Source of the DNA: Cystobacter fuscus | GTDB lineage: Bacteria > Myxococcota > Myxococcia > Myxococcales > Myxococcaceae | NCBI RefSeq assembly: GCF_002305875.1 | Contig: NZ_CP022098.1 | Span: forward strand, 11,656,001-11,720,000 | Length of the DNA: 64,000 nucleotides | Direction: 5' to 3' | In this document: positions 6,513 through 16,186 of the stretch, in pieces | Layout of the letters: every line of letters begins with the position of its first letter | Numbering within the stretch: the stretch's first letter is position 1 | Program-made: the position numbers and the translations under genes | The notes under the pieces: model-generated | Told to the model about the DNA's origin: nothing | Seen by the model: only the letters and a program-made list of their open reading frames with translations | Database searches by the model: none

Positions 6513-6561
6513 AAAAACATGGAGGGACAGCCACCCCGGCCGGGGCGGTTGTCCCTCCATG
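6513..6561 (-). terminator. Rho-independent terminator of the P450/ADH operon
   Basis: Perfect 12-bp inverted arms (CATGGAGGGACA at 6518-6529, TGTCCCTCCATG at 6550-6561) enclose a further GC-rich inner stem (CCCCGG/CCGGGG). On the minus strand the hairpin runs directly into TTTTT. It lies 25 bp after the P450 stop codon and is the clearest intrinsic terminator in the window. Confidence 0.8.
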
Positions 6562-6586
6562 AATCGAATGAAACCTCACCCACACC

Positions 6587-9500
6587 TCAGGCGAAGACGT
6601 CGGCCACCAGGCGGCCCTGCTTCTCCATTCCCTCCAGCCATGCCGTGGCCTCCGCCTCGGAGCAGCCCACCGTCTCCTGGTGGATCTTCGCCAGCGTCTC
6701 GCGGACCGCGGGCGCCATGCGCCGCCCATCCCCGCAGATGAAGAACAGGGCGCCCTGGTCGAGCAGCGCCTTCACCTGCTCGCGCTCCTTCCACAGCCGG
6801 TGCTGCACGAACATCACGTCGCCCTCGGGCTGGCGGAAGAAGGCGGGCAACACCTTCACCACGCCCTCTCGCTCCCACGCCGCCAGCTCCTCGCGGTAGA
6901 GGAAGTCCACCTCCGGGTGGTCACACCCGAAGAAGAACAACGCCGGCCCCGCCGCCTCCCCTCGCGCGTGGCGCAGGGCGCGCTCCTGGATGAAGCCCCG
7001 GAAGGGCGCCAGCCCCGTGCCCGCGCCCACCATGATGAGGGGCGTCGCGTTCGACGCCGGCGGATGGAAGGGCGCGTTCGGCGTGCGCACCGCCACCGCC
7101 ACCTGCTCGCCCGGACGCAGCCGCGCCAGGTAGCTCGAGCACGTGCCATGGAAGCGACCCTGGCCGCTCCACGCCTCCGCGTCCACCACCGCCACCGTCA
7201 ACGTGCACACCGTGGGGTCCGCCCTCGGCGAGGACGATACCGAGTACTGCCGCACGCGCATGGCCGGCAACAACTCGAGGAAGTCTCCGAAGGTGAGGAG
7301 GCACGAGGTGTACTGCTCCAACAGGTCCAACACGCTCACGCGCTTGTCGAGGATCTCCTTCTTGTAGCGCTCGGCGTCCTGGGCCAGGGCGGCCAGGTGC
7401 ATGGCGTGCGGCGGGCACGGGTTCTTCTCCGCCAGCCGCTCCAGATCCTTGCGCGTGGCGGGCGCCGACAACTCCACGTGCCGGCCGAGCAGTTCCTGCA
7501 CCGACACCGGCTTGTCCGTGGGCAGCGACGACGCCATGGCGCCCCGGGTCGAGTGCAGGACGACGGCGGCGTCCGTGCGCACCCCGAAGCGGCGCGCGGC
7601 ACGCTCCACGAGGTCCGGGTGATTCTCCGGCAGCACCGCGAGGTAGTCCCCCGCCGCGTACGTCACGCCCTCGGGCAGCTTGAAGGCGAGGTGCCGCTTG
7701 GAGCGCCCGAGCGGCGACGTCATGTCGACGAGCTCGCGGTTGTCCACCAGCGTGGCCAGCTCGAGCTTGTTCTGCTTCACCAGCTCCGTGCTCGAGGAGG
7801 GCACCACCTCCACCGTGTAGAGCGGCTCGGACGACACCGCGCGCGAGGACACGCCGAGCGCCGCGCCCACCTTCTCCCAGAAGGGCGCATACCAGTGCTC
7901 GAAGTCCCCGAAGAAATCACCCCGCGCATCCGCCTCGCCGCGCGCGACGAGTGCCTCGGCGCCCGCGGCGCTCAGCCGCTCGTCGAAGTGCTTGGGAATG
8001 GCCTGGTACGTCGCGGCCCAGTCCCGGTTGCCGCAACCGAACACCGCGTAGCGCACGCCCAGCAGCGAGCCCTCGGGGACGTTCGAAATCCACGTGTGGA
8101 AGGCCCGCGCGTTGTCAGGCGGCTGGCCGTTGTAGGAGGCCGTCACGAGGACGACGGCGCCCTCCTTGGGCAGCTTCCCGGTGTAGTCGTCCAGCGGCGC
8201 CACCTTCGCCGAATAGCCCCGCGCGAGCCCATCACTTGCGATGCGCCGGGCGAACGCCTCGGAGGCCCCCGAGTTGGAGCCGTAGAGCAGGAGCAGGGGC
8301 GTGCCATGCGAGGCCACTCCCTCCTGCTTCGGAGCGGGCGCGGCGGCACCGGGCGTGGGACGCGAGGCGAGCGGACGAGAGACGGGCTTGCGCACGCGGA
8401 CGCGCAGCTTGAGCCCCTCGGGCTTGAGCGTGAGCGTCTCACGGACGTGGAGCTCGTACGGCGCGGGCTCCACGAGGTGGAAGCGCTGGAGCATCATGGC
8501 CAGCACCAGCGTGGCCTCCTGGAGCGCGAACGCCCGGCCGATGCACGAGCGCTGCCCATTGCCGAACGGCTTCCACGCGTGCGGTGGAATGCTGTCGCGC
8601 ACCTCGGGGGCGAAGCGATCCGGATCGAAGCGCTCCGGGTCCTTCCACACCGTGGGATCGCGGTGCAGCATCGTGGTGAGCACCACCGCGGTGTTGTCGC
8701 GGCGGATGGGGTAGGTGCCCGCGATCAGCGTCTCCTCCGCCTTGGGGTGCACGGAGAACGCCGGCGCGGTGGGCCACAAGCGCAGCGACTCACGCAGGAT
8801 CTGATCGATGTAGTGCAGTTGGCTGACCTGCTCGAAGCGCGGCATCTCGTCGCCCAGCACCCGATCCACCTCGGCCTGGGCCTTCTCGAGCACCTCGGGG
8901 TGGCGCAGCAGGAAGTAGGTGGCGAAGGACAACAGGCCGCTCGTCGTCTCGTGACCCGCGATGAGGAAGGTCACCATCTGGTTGCGGATGTTCTCCTCGT
9001 CGAGCCCCTCGCCCGTGAGGGGATCCCTCGCGTCGAGCATGAGGCTGAGCAGGTCGCGCGGGGCCTCCTCGGGCGGGAGCGCGCGGCGACTGGCGATGAG
9101 CTCGCGCGTCACCTCGTGCATGTAGCCGATGTCCGCCTGGAACTGGCGCTGGGTGCGCAGCATGAGCTGCGTCTGGAGCGGGACGCGCCGGGCGCGATTG
9201 CCCGCCTCGGCCAGGGCGCGCACCATGGACTCGACGAAGGGGTGCATCTCCTTCTGATAGAAGCTGTTGAAGCGGTAGCCGAAGCCACACAGCGCGATGG
9301 TGTCGAGCGTGAGCCGCGTCATGTTGTCCGGCACGTCGAGCACGGCGTCCGGCCCGAAGCGCTCCCAGCGCGTGAACATCTGGTCGGCCACGTCGAGCAT
9401 GTCGTCGTGGTAGTTGCGCATGGCCGCGGGACCGAACGCGGGCATCAACAGGCGGTGGGCCTTGCCCCAGTTGGGCTCCTCCGTCATCGCGGTGAAGAGG

Positions 9501-9772
9501 CCGTCGCCCGCGAAGTCACGGATCTGCTTGAGCGCCCCGCTCACCTGCTTGTCGAAGCGGCTCTCGTCGCAGACATCGGCCACCAGCTCATGCGAGCTGA
9601 GAATCAGCGAGGTGCGCCCTCCGGGAAACGACAGCCGGAAGATGGGCCCCAGCTCGCGCGCGAGCTTCATCAGGTTCTGCATGGGCGTCTCGAAGCCGAC
9701 GTCCGGCACATTGCCGACGAGGGGACGCACATGGGGCTGGGGAATCGTGCTCGAATGGGAAGGCTTGTTCAT
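6587..9772 (-). CDS. CYP102-like self-sufficient cytochrome P450/NADPH-P450 reductase fusion
   Basis: A 1061-residue soluble fusion of the P450-BM3 type, expected to hydroxylate fatty acids or similar lipophiles with NADPH and O2. Heme domain about residues 15-465: I-helix AGHETT (272-277), ExxR (ESLR, 328-331) and heme loop FGNGQRSCIG with the Cys ligand at 410. A Pro/Ala linker follows, then an FMN flavodoxin domain (LLLLYGSNSGASE, about 493-635), then an FAD/NADPH reductase domain with RQYSVSSS and VGAGTGLAPFRGF, ending DVFA. The BM3 Phe87 and Arg47 positions appear kept (F93, R53), while Tyr51 looks like Ile57. A GTG at 9790 overlapping the upstream stop is the alternative start. It is the second gene of an operon with an alcohol dehydrogenase. 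Confidence 0.95.
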   Translation of the reverse strand: MNKPSHSSTIPQPHVRPLVGNVPDVGFETPMQNLMKLARELGPIFRLSFPGGRTSLILSSHELVADVCDESRFDKQVSGALKQIRDFAGDGLFTAMTEEPNWGKAHRLLMPAFGPAAMRNYHDDMLDVADQMFTRWERFGPDAVLDVPDNMTRLTLDTIALCGFGYRFNSFYQKEMHPFVESMVRALAEAGNRARRVPLQTQLMLRTQRQFQADIGYMHEVTRELIASRRALPPEEAPRDLLSLMLDARDPLTGEGLDEENIRNQMVTFLIAGHETTSGLLSFATYFLLRHPEVLEKAQAEVDRVLGDEMPRFEQVSQLHYIDQILRESLRLWPTAPAFSVHPKAEETLIAGTYPIRRDNTAVVLTTMLHRDPTVWKDPERFDPDRFAPEVRDSIPPHAWKPFGNGQRSCIGRAFALQEATLVLAMMLQRFHLVEPAPYELHVRETLTLKPEGLKLRVRVRKPVSRPLASRPTPGAAAPAPKQEGVASHGTPLLLLYGSNSGASEAFARRIASDGLARGYSAKVAPLDDYTGKLPKEGAVVLVTASYNGQPPDNARAFHTWISNVPEGSLLGVRYAVFGCGNRDWAATYQAIPKHFDERLSAAGAEALVARGEADARGDFFGDFEHWYAPFWEKVGAALGVSSRAVSSEPLYTVEVVPSSSTELVKQNKLELATLVDNRELVDMTSPLGRSKRHLAFKLPEGVTYAAGDYLAVLPENHPDLVERAARRFGVRTDAAVVLHSTRGAMASSLPTDKPVSVQELLGRHVELSAPATRKDLERLAEKNPCPPHAMHLAALAQDAERYKKEILDKRVSVLDLLEQYTSCLLTFGDFLELLPAMRVRQYSVSSSPRADPTVCTLTVAVVDAEAWSGQGRFHGTCSSYLARLRPGEQVAVAVRTPNAPFHPPASNATPLIMVGAGTGLAPFRGFIQERALRHARGEAAGPALFFFGCDHPEVDFLYREELAAWEREGVVKVLPAFFRQPEGDVMFVQHRLWKEREQVKALLDQGALFFICGDGRRMAPAVRETLAKIHQETVGCSEAEATAWLEGMEKQGRLVADVFA

Positions 9773-9786
9773 CGAAGAACCCCGGA

Positions 9787-10836
9787 TCACGGTTGGAGGA
9801 CGAGACGGATGGGATTGCCCTGCTTCTTCATCAGGCGCTCGACACCCAGGGGTGCGTCCGCCAGGGGCAGCACGGCGCTGACCGAGCGGGAGAAGTCGAG
9901 CCGGCCCAGCCGCGTGAGCTTCACGAGCTGCGGCAGGTGCTCGAGCCGCGAGCCGTAATGCCCCCGCACCTGCTGCATCGCCGCGCAGAAGCCGATGCCC
10001 TGGGAGAGCGACAGGGGAGCGGGAGTCAGGCCCACCAGCACGAGCCGGCCCCGAGGCGCCAACACCGACTGCGCCTGCTCACGCACGGGAGCCACGCCCG
10101 CCAGGTCCAGTGCCACGTCCAGGCCCCGCCCGTCCGTCCAGTGCAACACCTGCTCGCGCACGTCCGGCTGCTGGGGATCCAACGCCAGGTCCGCGCCCAG
10201 CGCCAACGCCCGCTCCCGGGCCTCCGGCAACGGATCGAAGGCGATGATGGGCGCCGCGCCGAACGCGCGCACCAGTTGCACGCCGTGCGCCCCCAGGCCG
10301 CCAATCCCCCAGATGCCCACGGACTCCGCGGGCCGCAGCGCCGCCGTGTCCACGATGGCCGCGTACGGCGTGGAGACCGCGTCGGGCAGGATGGCCGCCT
10401 GCTCGATGGGCAGCATGTCCGGAACGGCGATGAGCGTGTCCTGGCGGGCGAGCGCGTACTCGGCCCAGCCTCCGTCGTAGTCCACGCCACGCGTGAGCGG
10501 ACGCAGACACCCCGTCCGCGTCATGCACAGGGCACATGCCCCACACGACTGCCCCGCCTGGAGCAGGACGCGCTGGCCTGGCTTCCACCAGGTCCCCGTG
10601 CCCTCGCCGAGCTTCTCGATGACGCCCGCGACCTCATGGCCCAGGGTCACGGTCGTGAACCCCGGGCGAGGCTTCAGCCGCAGGGAACCGTCGATCAGAT
10701 GCACGTCCGACAAACAGATACCGGCCGCCAACACCTTGATGCGCACTTCACCCGGCCCTGGCTCGGGGATGGCCACCTGTTCCATCCCGAACTTCCCCGT
10801 CACGAGGTCGAGCCGACCCGCCAACATCGTCGCCAT
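9787..10836 (-). CDS. Zinc-dependent alcohol dehydrogenase (MDR superfamily)
   Basis: A 349-residue medium-chain dehydrogenase. Catalytic zinc ligands are Cys41 (GICLSD) and His67-Glu68 (GHEVAG). A structural zinc lobe is at Cys98, 101, 104 and 110, where the last gap is 5 residues instead of the usual 7. The Rossmann motif is GIGGLGAHG. AGAGGAG precedes the ATG at 10836. The stop abuts the P450 gene, so the two are surely co-transcribed. A natural reading is that the P450 makes an alcohol and this enzyme oxidises it; the substrate is inferred, not seen. Regulation is probably by the divergent Crp/Fnr protein. Confidence 0.92.
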   Translation of the reverse strand: MATMLAGRLDLVTGKFGMEQVAIPEPGPGEVRIKVLAAGICLSDVHLIDGSLRLKPRPGFTTVTLGHEVAGVIEKLGEGTGTWWKPGQRVLLQAGQSCGACALCMTRTGCLRPLTRGVDYDGGWAEYALARQDTLIAVPDMLPIEQAAILPDAVSTPYAAIVDTAALRPAESVGIWGIGGLGAHGVQLVRAFGAAPIIAFDPLPEARERALALGADLALDPQQPDVREQVLHWTDGRGLDVALDLAGVAPVREQAQSVLAPRGRLVLVGLTPAPLSLSQGIGFCAAMQQVRGHYGSRLEHLPQLVKLTRLGRLDFSRSVSAVLPLADAPLGVERLMKKQGNPIRLVLQP

Positions 10837-10896
10837 CTCGCTTCTCCTCTCGCGTCGAATCCGAGGAGAATGATGGGCACCCCACCTCCCAAACTC

Positions 10897-10912
10897 TGTC
10901 GCGACCGCGACA
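10897..10912. promoter_or_regulatory. Perfect palindrome TGTCGCGACCGCGACA, candidate Crp/Fnr operator
   Basis: Two 7-bp arms (TGTCGCG / CGCGACA) separated by AC lie in the 126-bp gap between the divergent ADH/P450 operon and the Crp/Fnr gene. The TGT...ACA ends match the general outline of Crp/Fnr-family half sites (TGTGA/TTGAT type), but the core is different. It is a candidate site for the adjacent regulator, and no other strong symmetry is visible in the gap. Confidence 0.5.
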
Positions 10913-10962
10913 CACTCGCGAAAAAGTGCCTCCAGGCGGGGCACCAAGAGGAGTGGCCCACC

Positions 10963-11670
10963 ATGAAGCCTGACCGCACGGCACTCGACTACCTGGAACT
11001 CTTCCGCTCCGGGAGCTGGTTTCGCGCCACCCCGGCCGACTTCCAGGAGAGGTTGCTCCGGCTCGGCGTCCTGCGCGCCCTGAAGACGGGCCAGCACCTG
11101 TTCTCCCGGGGCAATCTCCCCGCCGGCTTCTACGGCGTGGTCGATGGCGCCATCCGGTTGCGCACGCTCGGACCCTCCGGCCGGGAGGCCCTGCTCAAGT
11201 TCCTCGAGCCCCCCTCCTGGTGTGGGGAGATCGGCCTCTTCGACGGCCTGCCACTGACCCACGACGCCATCGCCGATGCGCCCACCGTCGTCGTCCATGT
11301 ACCGCACGCCCCCCTGGCCGCCCTGCTCGCGGAGCAGCCCGGCTATTGGTTCGAATTCGGCCGCCTCATGGCGCAGCACATGCGGCTCACCCTGCTGTCC
11401 ATCGACGAGGTCGCACACGAGGCCGTGCCCATCCGGCTCGCGCGGCGCCTGCTGCTCATCGCCCAGAACTACGGGGATCTGCACGCCCACAGCAGCCGGG
11501 TCATCGAGGTGCGGCAGGAGGAGCTGGCGATGATGCTCACCATCTCCCGGCAGACGACGAATCAGATCCTCAAGCAGCTCGAGGCCCAGGGCATCGTGGG
11601 GCTGCGCTACGGGGAGATCGAGATCCTCGACCTGGAGAAGCTGCGCGAGGTGGTGGCGGGCAATGGGTGA
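10963..11670 (+). CDS. Crp/Fnr family transcriptional regulator
   Basis: A 235-residue regulator. The N-terminal cyclic-nucleotide-binding fold spans about residues 25-130 (GQHLFSRGNLPAGFYGVVDG, then a phosphate-cassette-like stretch CGEIGLFDGLPLTHDA). The C-terminal helix-turn-helix spans about 160-225 (EELAMMLTISRQTTNQILKQ). There is no N-terminal cysteine cluster, so it is not an oxygen-sensing FNR of the classical type. The start at ATG 10963 has AAGAGGAG upstream. It is divergent from the ADH/P450 operon across a palindrome and is therefore its probable regulator; the ligand is unknown. Confidence 0.9.
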   Translation: MKPDRTALDYLELFRSGSWFRATPADFQERLLRLGVLRALKTGQHLFSRGNLPAGFYGVVDGAIRLRTLGPSGREALLKFLEPPSWCGEIGLFDGLPLTHDAIADAPTVVVHVPHAPLAALLAEQPGYWFEFGRLMAQHMRLTLLSIDEVAHEAVPIRLARRLLLIAQNYGDLHAHSSRVIEVRQEELAMMLTISRQTTNQILKQLEAQGIVGLRYGEIEILDLEKLREVVAGNG

Positions 11671-11755: not shown

Positions 11756-12451
11756 ATGTCCCCCTCCCCGCCCGTGGTCGAGCTGAACGATGTCTCCAAG
11801 TCCTACGCCGAGGGCGATGCCGTGCGCGAGGTGCTCGCCGGCACGAGCCTCACCCTGCACGCGGGCGAGTTCGTCGTGCTGCTCGGCCGCAGCGGCTCGG
11901 GCAAGTCCACGCTGCTCAACCTCATCAGCGGCATCGACCAGCCCTCGCGAGGCACGGTGCGGGTGGCGGGGCAGGAGCTGGGCGCGCTGAGCGAACACGG
12001 GCGTACCCTGCTGCGCCGCGAGCGCATCGGCTTCATCTTCCAGGCCTTCAACCTGCTGCCCACGCTCACGGTGGAGGAGAACATCCTCCTGCCACTGGAG
12101 CTCACCGGGCGCGCGGGCCCGGCCTCGCGCGAGCGGGTGCGGGAGCTGCTCGACACGGTGGGCCTGGGCAACCGGGCCGCGAGCTTCCCGGACCGGCTCT
12201 CCGGTGGCGAGCAGCAACGCGTGGCGGTGGCCCGGGCGCTCGCCCATGCACCACCCCTGCTGCTCGCGGACGAGCCCACGGGCAACCTCGACGAGGCGAC
12301 GGGAAAGCGGGTGTTGGATCTGCTCGAGGAGCTCACCCGTCGCGAGCGCGTCTGCGCCCTCATCGTCACGCATGATCCGGGAATGGTCGCGCGCGCCCAC
12401 CGCGTGCTGCGACTGGAGGCGGGACGACTGCGAGAGGAGGCACGCCCGTGA
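11756..12451 (+). CDS. ABC transporter ATP-binding protein (LolD/MacB/AttE type)
   Basis: A 231-residue ATPase of the MacB/LolD class that drives extraction or export of substrate from the outer face of the inner membrane. Walker A is GRSGSGKST, the Q-loop is in FIFQAFNLLPTL, the signature is LSGGEQQR, Walker B is LLLADEPTGNLDE and the H-loop is in VTHD. It overlaps the permease gene by GTGA and is followed by a lipocalin-like secreted protein. This order matches the AttEFGH/COG5621 systems, although here a single long permease replaces two. Confidence 0.92.
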   Translation: MSPSPPVVELNDVSKSYAEGDAVREVLAGTSLTLHAGEFVVLLGRSGSGKSTLLNLISGIDQPSRGTVRVAGQELGALSEHGRTLLRRERIGFIFQAFNLLPTLTVEENILLPLELTGRAGPASRERVRELLDTVGLGNRAASFPDRLSGGEQQRVAVARALAHAPPLLLADEPTGNLDEATGKRVLDLLEELTRRERVCALIVTHDPGMVARAHRVLRLEAGRLREEARP

Positions 12452-15000
12452 AACAGCGCCTGCTCTTGCGCGCCAGCCTGCGCCACCTGGGCGGCCACCC
12501 GTGGCTCACCGCGCTGTCGCTGCTGGGCATCGCGCTCGGGGTGGCGGTGGTGGTGTCCATCGACCTGGCCAACGCGAGCGCCCTGCGCGCCTTCGAGCGC
12601 TCCACGGACACGGTGACGGGCCGCGCCACGCACCAGCTCGTCGGAGGCCCCTCGGGAGTCCCGGAGACGGTGTACCGCGACCTGCGCCTGCTGCCTGGCG
12701 CCCCCGCGTCCGCCCCGATGGTGGAAGGCTCCGTGCGCGCGCGAAGCGGCGACCAGCGGCCCCTCACCGTGCTCGGGGTGGACCCGTTCGCCGAGGGCCC
12801 CTTCCGTTCCTATGTGCCCCAGGGTGGAGGCCAGGTGGACATGGCCACCTTCCTCACCGAGCCCGGCGCCGCGCTGCTCACCGAGCGCACCGCGCGGGCC
12901 CTGGAGGTGAAGGCGGGAGACGCCCTGAGGGTGGCGGTGGAGGGCGTGGAGAAGCGGCTGCGCGTGCTGGCGGTGCTGACCCCCGGCGACGAGGGCAGCG
13001 CCCGGGCGATGGAGGGGCTCGTGCTCACGGATCTCTCCACCGCGCAGGAGCTGTTCGGCCAGGAGGGACGCCTCTCGCGCATCGATCTCCGGCTGCCGGA
13101 GGGAGCGGAGGCGGAGGCCGCGCTGGAGCGCCTGCGTCCGCTGCTGCCCGAGGGCGTGGAGGTGATGCGGCCACACGCCCGGGGCAACGCGGTGGCGCAG
13201 ATGACGCGGGCGTTCCGCACCAACCTCACCGCGCTGTCGCTGCTGGCGCTCGTGGTGGGCACCTTCCTCATCTACAACACGATGACCTTCTCGGTGGTGC
13301 AGCGGCGCGAGCAGCTCGGCCGGCTACGCGCGCTGGGCGTCACCCGGAATGAGCTCTTCGCGCTGGTGCTCGGCGAGGCGGGCGTGCTGGGCGCGGTGGG
13401 CACCGTGGCCGGCGTGCTGCTGGGCATCCTCCTCGGGCGGGGCCTGGTGGAGCTCGTCACCCGGACGATCAATGACCTGTACCTCTCGGTGAGCGTGCGG
13501 GGCCTCGCGCTGGAGCCCTTCACGTTGAGCAAGGGGCTGGTGCTCGGCCTGGGCGCCACGCTCGCCGCCGCGCTGCGCCCCGCGTGGGAGGCGGCCCGCT
13601 CGGCGCCCGCGCTCACCCTGCGCCGCTCCACCCTCGAGGACGTGGCCCATGGCCGGGCGCCGCGGCTCGCGCTGACGGGAGTGGCCGTGCTCGCCGCGGG
13701 CGTGGGGTTGCTCGCCCTGCCCACGCGGGAGCTGCTCCCCGCCTACGCGGGCCTCTTCTCGGTGCTGCTCGGCGCGTCCCTGCTGGTGCCCTGGCTCACG
13801 GCCCTGCTCGCGCAAGGGGCGGCGGGACCGTTGGGCGGCGCCTTCGGGTTGCTCGGGCGCATGGCGGCGCGTGGGGTGACGGCGAGCCTCAGCCGTACCG
13901 CGGTGGCACTCGCGGCGCTGATGGTGGCGGTGGCCACCACGGTGGGCGTGGGACTGATGGTGACGAGCTTCCGCGGCACCGTGGCGGACTGGCTCGGCTC
14001 GTCGCTGGTGGCGGACATCTATGTGTCCCCGCCCTCGCTCGTCGCCCGGCGGGGGGGAGCCGCCTTCCTCCCAGGGCTCGCCGAGCGCGTGCGCACCACC
14101 CCGGGCGTGGCCAGCAGCAGCACCATGCGCACGGCGCAGGTGCGCGTGGATGGAGTGCCCACGGACGTGCGCGCGGTGGACTTCGGCGCGACGCCCACGC
14201 GCCCCTACCGCTTCAAGGAGGGCGACGCTTCGCGCGTGTGGAAGGAGCTGGAGGCGGCCGACACCGTCATCGTCTCCGAGCCCTTCGCCTCCCACCGCCG
14301 CGTGGGGCCAGGCTCTCGCGTGGAGCTGGCGACGGACGGGGGCCCCGCGTCCTTCCGCGTGGTGGGCGTGTACTTCGACTATGGCTCGGACGCGGGCACG
14401 GTGATGATGCTGCGGAGCACCTGGCTGCACCACTTCCGCGACGAGACCGTGAGCGGCGTGGCCCTCTATGCAGCGCCGGGGCAGGACGTGGATGCGCTCG
14501 TGGCCCGGGTGCGCGAGCGCGTCGGCACCGGGCAGATGCTGGACATCCGCTCCAACCGCACCCTGCGCGAGACGTCGCTGGAAGTGTTCGACCGCACCTT
14601 CACCATCACCCACGTGTTGCGGCTGCTGGCCATCGGCGTGGCCTTCGTGGGCGTGCTCAGCGCGCTCATGGCGCTGCAGCTCGAGCGCGCCCGGGAGTTC
14701 GCCGTGCTGCGCGCCACCGGTCTCACCCCGAGGCAACTCTGGGCGCTCGTGTCGCTGCAAACGGGGCTGCTCGGTACGCTCGCGGGGTTGTTCTCCCTGC
14801 CGCTCGGCGTGGCGCTCGCGTACGTGCTCGTCCACGTCATCAACCAGCGCTCCTTCGGGTGGACGTTGCAGCTCGTGGTGGCTCCCCCGGTGCTCTTCCA
14901 GGCGCTGGGGCTGGCGCTGCTCGCGGCGGCGCTCGCGGGCCTGTACCCATCCTGGAAGATGTCGCGCGCCAACCCCGCGCGGGCCCTGAGGGAGGAGTGA
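12448..15000 (+). CDS. ABC transporter permease, FtsX/MacB family, double FtsX domain
   Basis: An 850-residue membrane protein that starts with GTG overlapping the stop of the ATPase gene. An N-terminal membrane segment (LTALSLLGIALGVAVVVSI) is followed by a periplasmic MacB-type domain, then a first FtsX domain (from about residue 255, SLLALVVGTFLIYNTM). A second helix set and large periplasmic domain (about 480-720) precede the C-terminal FtsX domain (about 730-845). With no partner permease nearby it probably acts as a single chain or homodimer with the LolD-like ATPase. The substrate may be a lipid or lipoprotein; this is family-level inference. Confidence 0.9.
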   Translation: MKQRLLLRASLRHLGGHPWLTALSLLGIALGVAVVVSIDLANASALRAFERSTDTVTGRATHQLVGGPSGVPETVYRDLRLLPGAPASAPMVEGSVRARSGDQRPLTVLGVDPFAEGPFRSYVPQGGGQVDMATFLTEPGAALLTERTARALEVKAGDALRVAVEGVEKRLRVLAVLTPGDEGSARAMEGLVLTDLSTAQELFGQEGRLSRIDLRLPEGAEAEAALERLRPLLPEGVEVMRPHARGNAVAQMTRAFRTNLTALSLLALVVGTFLIYNTMTFSVVQRREQLGRLRALGVTRNELFALVLGEAGVLGAVGTVAGVLLGILLGRGLVELVTRTINDLYLSVSVRGLALEPFTLSKGLVLGLGATLAAALRPAWEAARSAPALTLRRSTLEDVAHGRAPRLALTGVAVLAAGVGLLALPTRELLPAYAGLFSVLLGASLLVPWLTALLAQGAAGPLGGAFGLLGRMAARGVTASLSRTAVALAALMVAVATTVGVGLMVTSFRGTVADWLGSSLVADIYVSPPSLVARRGGAAFLPGLAERVRTTPGVASSSTMRTAQVRVDGVPTDVRAVDFGATPTRPYRFKEGDASRVWKELEAADTVIVSEPFASHRRVGPGSRVELATDGGPASFRVVGVYFDYGSDAGTVMMLRSTWLHHFRDETVSGVALYAAPGQDVDALVARVRERVGTGQMLDIRSNRTLRETSLEVFDRTFTITHVLRLLAIGVAFVGVLSALMALQLERAREFAVLRATGLTPRQLWALVSLQTGLLGTLAGLFSLPLGVALAYVLVHVINQRSFGWTLQLVVAPPVLFQALGLALLAAALAGLYPSWKMSRANPARALREE

Positions 15001-15001
15001 G

Positions 15002-16186
15002 ATGACGCGCGCGGGTGGACTGGTCATCGGCGTGGGAGTGGTGCTGGTGGGGCTCGCGACGGGAGCGGGGTGGGTGTCCCGCGAGGCGGCGCCTCCCCCG
15101 GCGCGGACGACCACCCTGAAGGTCTCCGAGGCGCTCGGGGCGAAGACGGGAGGAGACGAGGGGTACACACGAGCGCTCGAGCCCCGGGAGTTCCATTTCC
15201 CCGAGGACCATGGTCCCCACGCGGGCTTCCGCAACGAGTGGTGGTACTGGACGGGCCATCTCGCCACGGCGGACGGGCGCGAGTTCGGCTACCAGTTCAC
15301 CCTGTTTCGCAGCGCCCTGGCGCCCGGCGAGTCCGAGCGTGCGTCCGCATGGGGGGCGCGGCAGATCTACATGGGACACCTCACGGTCTCGGACCTCCAG
15401 GGGGGCCGCTTCCACGCCTTCGAGCGCTTCAGCCGGAGCGCGCTGGGGCTCGCGGGGGCACGGACCGAGCCCTTCCGGGTGTGGCTGGAGGACTGGAGCG
15501 CGGAAGCAGTGGGCGGCGAGCCCCTGCCCCTGCGGCTCACCGCGCGGAGTGGGGACGTGTCGCTGTCGCTCGTGCTGGAGGAGGGCAAGCCCGTGGTGCT
15601 CCAGGGAGACCGAGGCCTGAGCCGGAAGGGGTCCGAGCCGGGCAATGCCTCCTATTACTACTCACTGCCGCGCATGCCCACGCGCGGAGAGGTGACGATG
15701 GACGGCCGCGCCTTCACGGTGACGGGCGAGAGTTGGATGGACCGCGAGTGGAGCACGAGCGCGCTCGGCGCGGAGCAGGTGGGATGGGATTGGTTCTCGC
15801 TCCAGCTCTCGGATGGGAGCGAGCTCATGTACTACCAACTGCGCCGGCGCGACGGCACGGTGGATGCTTTCACCTCGGGCACCCTCATCCCCGCCCGGGG
15901 AGAGCCCGCGCACCTGACCGCGAAGGACGCGCGGCTGGAGGTGCTCGACACATGGAAGAGCCCCCGGACGGGCGTGGAGTACCCCGCGCGCTGGAGGCTC
16001 GTGCTGCCCTCGCGCGACCTCTCCCTGGAAGTGACGCCGGCGCTCGCCGACCAGGAGTTGCCCGTGACCGTGCGCTACTGGGAGGGCGCGGTGCGCCTGT
16101 CGGGCAAACACGAAGGCCAGCCCGTGGAGGGCCGCGGCTACGTGGAGCTGACCGGCTACGGAGACTCCCCTCCTCCCGCACGCTGA
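15002..16186 (+). CDS. Lipocalin-like secreted protein, AttH/CrtC (COG5621) family
   Basis: A 394-residue protein with an N-terminal hydrophobic export segment (about residues 5-25). Family motifs are FPEDHGPHAGFRNEWWYWTG (about 62-81), GYQFTLFR, MDREWSTS and GWDWFSLQLSDG. These define the predicted secreted hydrolase/carotenoid 1,2-hydratase-like family, which has two lipocalin-like beta barrels. It starts 1 bp after the permease stop, so the three genes form one operon. In AttEFGH-type systems the AttH protein is the exported partner of the ABC transporter. The enzymatic activity is not established for the family. Confidence 0.88.
   Translation: MTRAGGLVIGVGVVLVGLATGAGWVSREAAPPPARTTTLKVSEALGAKTGGDEGYTRALEPREFHFPEDHGPHAGFRNEWWYWTGHLATADGREFGYQFTLFRSALAPGESERASAWGARQIYMGHLTVSDLQGGRFHAFERFSRSALGLAGARTEPFRVWLEDWSAEAVGGEPLPLRLTARSGDVSLSLVLEEGKPVVLQGDRGLSRKGSEPGNASYYYSLPRMPTRGEVTMDGRAFTVTGESWMDREWSTSALGAEQVGWDWFSLQLSDGSELMYYQLRRRDGTVDAFTSGTLIPARGEPAHLTAKDARLEVLDTWKSPRTGVEYPARWRLVLPSRDLSLEVTPALADQELPVTVRYWEGAVRLSGKHEGQPVEGRGYVELTGYGDSPPPAR

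Follow-up and report, generated by a model that had tools for sequence, protein, structure and literature searches.

The closest described systems are BM3R1–CYP102A1 (P450 BM3) and FatR–CYP102A3 of Bacillus, in which a TetR-type repressor is displaced by fatty acids (PMC3814354). The locus described here shares with them a one-chain P450–reductase, a dedicated neighboring regulator and a palindrome (PMC3814354), whereas their regulator is a TetR-type repressor and the regulator here is of Crp type and, judged by its geometry, a putative activator. A second point of reference is provided by CRP/GlxR and the class II CRP promoters, with which the locus shares the fold, a 16-base TGT-N10-ACA site and a predicted site center near −41.5. 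E. coli CRP recognizes the half-site TGTGA and has the helix stretch SRETVGR; in contrast, the half-site here is TGTC[GA], the helix stretch is SRQTTNQ, and the Arg that contacts the cAMP phosphate is replaced. The third comparison is with pairs of a Crp gene and an Mpo1-like gene (PF06127), which share the regulator family, the kind of palindrome and the spacing to a −10-like hexamer, except that the partner here is a P450, or an alcohol dehydrogenase (ADH) and a P450, instead of an Mpo1-like gene. The accessible parts of the literature that we searched hold no account of a Crp–Mpo1 pairing or of a Crp-controlled CYP102 in myxobacteria, and the accessible part of PMC11900375 does not mention repressor, operon, Archangium or Cystobacter.

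Our analysis of a 64,000-nucleotide stretch of the Cystobacter fuscus genome (the window) suggests that a Crp-type activator dedicated to genes for the oxygenation of fatty acids has probably been redeployed onto a CYP102-type enzyme. The features of the locus are as follows.

6513–6561, minus strand: Rho-independent-type terminator, a GC-rich hairpin (6518–6561) followed by T5 (6517–6513).
6587–9772, minus strand: CYP102-type self-sufficient P450 (P450-FMN-FAD-NAD fusion), from Pfam, PDB matches and motifs.
9787–10836, minus strand: medium-chain zinc-ADH-like protein, 349 aa, with Pfam ADH_N and ADH_zinc_N.
10870–10875, minus strand: predicted −10-like hexamer CATCAT of the ADH–P450 operon, bases 22–27 from the operator edge.
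10893–10916: extended symmetric region of 24 bases, from comparison with genome G003.
10897–10912: predicted Crp operator TGTCGCG-AC-CGCGACA, fitting TGTCG-N6-CGACA, from sequence and conservation.
10963–11670, plus strand: Crp/Fnr-family regulator with Pfam cNMP_binding (PF00027) and HTH_Crp_2 (PF13545).
11756–16186, plus strand: ABC transporter, FtsX-like permease and CrtC/lipocalin-like genes after Crp, which could share the Crp transcript.

The initial annotation had described a fusion of the P450-BM3 type that shares an operon with a zinc ADH, closed by a strong terminator, and this description holds. The ADH gene comes first in the minus-strand operon, with 14 bases between its stop codon and the P450 ATG. 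Counted from the chosen ATG at 9772, the P450 fusion is 1061 aa long (the longest frame opens at GTG 9790), and the Pfam domains p450, Flavodoxin_1, FAD_binding_1 and NAD_binding_1 follow one another in this single chain. Among PDB entries, the chain best matches full-length bifunctional P450/NADPH-P450 reductases and BM3 heme domains, and the motifs FGNGQRSCIG and AGHETTSG start at residues 403 and 272, respectively. The label CYP102-type denotes this domain order and these PDB matches and is not meant as a formal CYP family name. The ADH alignment shows a GHE and a four-Cys stretch, which we take to be the zinc residues. The terminator hairpin, folded in a 70-base stretch, has an energy of about −39.8 kcal/mol; the terminator scan reported just part of it.

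The regulator beside the P450 was proposed to be of a kind other than BM3R1, and its Pfam domains bear this out: it is Crp-type, and no TetR-type regulator adjoins the CYP102-type gene in the window. Its top PDB match, both by sequence and by fold, is Mycobacterium tuberculosis CRP (model pLDDT 81.2), with Crp proteins bound to cAMP among the nearest structures. Within the recognition region, residues S195, R196, Q197, N200 and Q201 are invariant among 14 aligned Crp proteins, all of which contain the helix stretch SRQ[TS]xNQxLK. The sensor domain carries no phosphate-contact Arg of the cAMP-binding CRP subgroup, a residue that in cAMP-binding Crp proteins presumably touches the cAMP phosphate. 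Specifically, this position is L98 in the Crp of the window and Leu in that of G001, and Ser in that of G002, whereas the remaining 11 of the 14 rows have Arg; the Arg is thus replaced, by Leu or Ser, in the three genomes that carry the ADH. An FNR type was considered and ruled out, since a single Cys leaves no Cys cluster for an Fe-S center.

The gap between the ADH and Crp genes is 126 bases long and contains the palindrome, which the initial annotation had called a perfect 16-bp palindrome. The two arms of 7 bases are indeed perfect, yet the description is overstated because the two bases at the center are unpaired (7+2+7). By itself the palindrome is only mildly unusual: when the gap was shuffled 4000 times with dinucleotides preserved, 111 of the shuffled sequences held a 7+(0–2)+7 palindrome, and we therefore dropped it as stand-alone evidence. 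What gives it weight is that it is conserved and rare. The whole 12.35 Mb genome contains a single TGTCGCG-N2-CGCGACA, and the palindrome is present between the divergent genes in all four genus genomes examined. In G003, which lacks the ADH, the gap has diverged and the palindrome reads ACTCTGTCGC-CGTC-GCGACAGAGT, a longer symmetry in which 20 of 24 bases pair. Of the three-gene neighborhood proposed for relatives, Crp and P450 with the palindrome are found in 4/4 genus genomes, and the ADH lies between them in three (G000–G002).

Relatives of the P450 elsewhere in the family have other neighbors. A search of 96 family genomes (E ≤ 1e-150) gave 20 P450 places, eight beside a divergent TetR-type gene (c5), eight beside a TetR-type gene in the same direction (c4), and four with Crp; for one protein of each group, c5 and c4, Pfam confirmed the TetR-type domains. 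In the P450 tree, the c5-linked and Crp-linked copies are joined at 100/100, with the c4-linked copies apart, and a single clade of the four Crp-linked P450s is weakly backed (55/44). Each group has its own upstream element. The c5-linked copies have in common an ATGCGAATTTCGC-like stretch, the c4-linked copies are preceded by TTATAG/CTATAAG-like palindromes, and the TGTCG site occurs upstream of the Crp-linked operons only, the top match in the 260 bases upstream of the 16 TetR-linked copies reaching 8 of 10 fixed bases. An order-wide search (145 genomes, E ≤ 1e-50) found a Crp of the window type in 13 genomes, and it was seen together with a P450 of this branch only in the four genus genomes (the surroundings in G137 were covered over 3.7 kb). 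At a separate locus, L010 (6881–13454; genome of 4.23 Mb), about 1.3 kb separates a c4-type P450 and the TetR-type gene beside it from a Crp–Mpo1 pair, so that two oxygenation units under different regulators adjoin each other.

To place the regulator, we used its named relatives, the best 80 of 445 confirmed candidates, at 45–55% identity. They come mostly from Pseudomonas, and some from Archangium, Burkholderiales, Hahella and others. An Mpo1-like gene lies near Crp in 78 of these best 80 loci (tblastn, fetched stretches), and no P450 or ADH match (E ≤ 1e-10) was found in the fetched stretches of any of the 80; the Pfam identity of the Mpo1-like protein was checked on that of L010. Yeast Mpo1 is reportedly a 2-hydroxy-fatty-acid dioxygenase. 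Upstream of Crp, TGTCG-N6-CGACA is matched at 8 or more of its 10 fixed bases in 76 of the best 80 loci and at 9 or more in 72; among 3807 random control windows drawn from those loci, 486 reach 8 or more, 87 reach 9 or more, and none matches all 10. The family form of the site is TGTC[GA]-N6-[CT]GACA, and a site of this kind also precedes 10/10 Mpo1-linked myxobacterial Crp genes that were read, four of the best 80 loci overlapping with these ten. By reading, the Mpo1-like gene is divergent from Crp in 75 of the 80, with the site in 75/75, and is on the same strand as Crp in three (L168, L179 and L197), with the site in 0/3; the site therefore goes with the divergent layout. The two named loci without Mpo1 differ, L156 having the site and L150 lacking it. 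At L156 (2438–6699, a Burkholderiales genome bin), a single case, Crp faces an FAD-binding dehydrogenase and a thiamine-diphosphate-type enzyme across a similar palindrome.

An Mpo1-like gene was not found around the P450 module in the four genus genomes. In a Crp tree comprising 24 of the 80 named loci and 14 other rows, the genus clade does not group with the other myxobacterial Crps, which counts against redeployment as we propose it; the row closest to it, at 82/81, comes from a Burkholderiales locus that has no Mpo1.

The spacing between the site and a −10-like hexamer is nearly constant. Toward the enzyme gene, NANNNT occurs at offset 22 or 23 from the palindrome in 72 of the 73 distinct named loci, compared with 26/73 for the next best non-adjacent offset in that direction and 8/73 for the same offsets on the Crp side. 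Because the spacing was spotted after the sequences had been viewed, these other offsets and the Crp side serve as the controls. By reading, 15 myxobacterial sites show the same hexamer spacing. If the hexamer is the −10 element, this constant offset places the center of the site near −41.5/−42.5, and the operon would start near 10863 with a leader of about 27 bases that carries GAGGAG before the ADH. A site centered near −41.5 is in the class II position of Crp activation. We infer that Crp would bind the palindrome and activate the leftward ADH–P450 promoter from this position, in place of a −35 box.

It is rather unlikely that Crp is instead a repressor and autorepressor, blocking the ADH–P450 promoter and its own until a signal releases it, as the TetR-type BM3R1 does for CYP102. 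The position of the palindrome, between two divergent genes and with a predicted overlap of the −35 region, suits such a role, as does the known control of CYP102 by repression that fatty acids relieve (PMC3814354), but the near-constant distance to the −10-like hexamer is that of a class II activator. A promoter scan found no sigma-70-type promoter, which also goes against repression but says little, because only 0.2 were expected.

The ADH was proposed to act with the P450 in a dedicated oxidise-then-dehydrogenate pathway. A two-step pathway of hydroxylation and then oxidation, with Crp as its trigger, appears unlikely on the present evidence. In its favor, the two genes share one operon at a distance of 14 bases, their order is kept in G001 and G002, and the ADH is 97% identical among G000–G002. 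Against it, the ADH was not found in G003, the fourth genus genome (E ≤ 1e-70), where Crp and P450 adjoin, and across the family it adjoins the P450 at 3 of 20 places, being absent from G003 and not adjoining the other 16. The pathway claim is not supported because the ADH is missing from one genus genome and from most of these places. Furthermore, relatives of the ADH have different neighbors elsewhere: in three Archangium-type genomes (L117, L118 and L119), relatives with 76% identity adjoin one conserved other gene, which is MaoC-like in L117, the one tested, with an HMG-CoA-synthase-like gene nearby. Since the ADH leader of G000–G002 aligns with the P450 leader of G003, the ADH appears to have been inserted behind an existing leader or, less simply, to have been lost from G003. 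The coupling to the ADH is a local addition, and operon membership is the sole evidence of a pathway that we found. An AibC-type reductase was also considered for the ADH and rejected, with just 33–35% identity to two MDR proteins that adjoin CoA-transferase-like genes.

That Crp adjoins the P450 by chance, heading the rightward ABC transporter, FtsX and lipocalin genes, with a palindrome that controls only those and Crp itself, is very improbable: the same ABC-FtsX-CrtC-like genes stand behind Crp in 4/4 genus genomes, but the −10-like element and its spacing are on the P450/ADH side, and at other loci the usual gene opposite this Crp type is an Mpo1-like one, with other genes behind Crp in the myxobacterial loci read.

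The initial annotation had called the module self-contained, which is too narrow, as the same site also precedes a catalase-like gene elsewhere in the genome.

L136, 1569–2669, and loci L235 and L237: catalase-like gene with an exact Crp site upstream.

The exact site is present upstream in all three genus genomes that hold this gene (G000, G002 and G003), and the gene is likely a second target of Crp, as judged from this placement. The Pfam Catalase match spans just residues 37–117 of 366, and the structure model is poor (mean pLDDT 46.8) and was left unused. A relative with 71% identity in G080 lies in a locus with no site above 7/10, and a Crp of the window type was not found there (E ≤ 1e-30).

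Across the four genus genomes, TGTCG-N6-CGACA occurs exactly 22 times, compared with 8 for the reversed control. Nine of the 22 sites are tied to Crp–P450/ADH (4), Crp–Mpo1 (2) or the catalase-like gene (3), and the other 13 are not tied. Nine genus loci with exact sites were viewed: the sites of L129 and L134 lie inside called genes, that of L138 overlaps a gene end, L137 is the catalase-like gene, and five lie between or outside called genes, with no recognizable target. The exact site of L221 lies within an apparently coding stretch. A longer form, CTGTCGC-N4-GCGACAG, was rejected as a marker of the regulator: it is unspecific, occurring in 15 of 92 family genomes (control in 6). The sequence of the site alone does not prove the regulator, because 11 of these 15 genomes are outside the genus and a Crp of the window type was not found in them (E ≤ 1e-30).

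In Pseudomonas, eight genomes were checked for the pattern TGTCRGSYAGSYGACA with up to one mismatch, and all eight contain matches (1–5 per strand, control 0–2). Exact TGTCRGSYAGSYGACA occurs at one place in six genomes and at two in G151, each time including the Crp–Mpo1 site, and at none in G152, whose Crp site carries one mismatch. These counts fit a regulator with one or few targets.

The predicted partners of the regulator (BM3-type P450, Mpo1-like and catalase-like proteins) point to fatty acid oxygenation or the handling of the oxidized products, so that a lipid-derived signal may be inferred; the P450 itself would act on fatty acids. On the preferred reading, Crp would belong to a set of regulators, most of them facing a single divergent Mpo1-like gene, whose dedicated role is to control how fatty acids or hydroxy fatty acids are oxygenated. 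A copy in the genus would have taken over a CYP102-type gene whose relatives adjoin TetR-type genes, and later, most simply in the G000–G002 branch, the ADH would have been inserted upstream of the P450, behind its old leader. Going further, we tentatively suggest that a widespread, undescribed Crp-family activator might sense a fatty acid, hydroxy fatty acid or lipid peroxide instead of cAMP, might mainly control one Mpo1-like gene in Pseudomonas and relatives (TGTC[GA]-N6-[CT]GACA at −41.5), and might have been redeployed in the myxobacterial genus to a small lipid-oxidation regulon of CYP102-type P450, ADH and catalase-like genes.

Among close relatives, one enzyme family presents three regulator neighbors with upstream elements of three kinds, a natural example of one regulator replacing another. 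For the Crp family of Pseudomonas and others, the analysis supplies a site together with a likely target and a predicted way of acting. If redeployment is true, an enzyme kind that is normally repressed would have been turned into an activated one.
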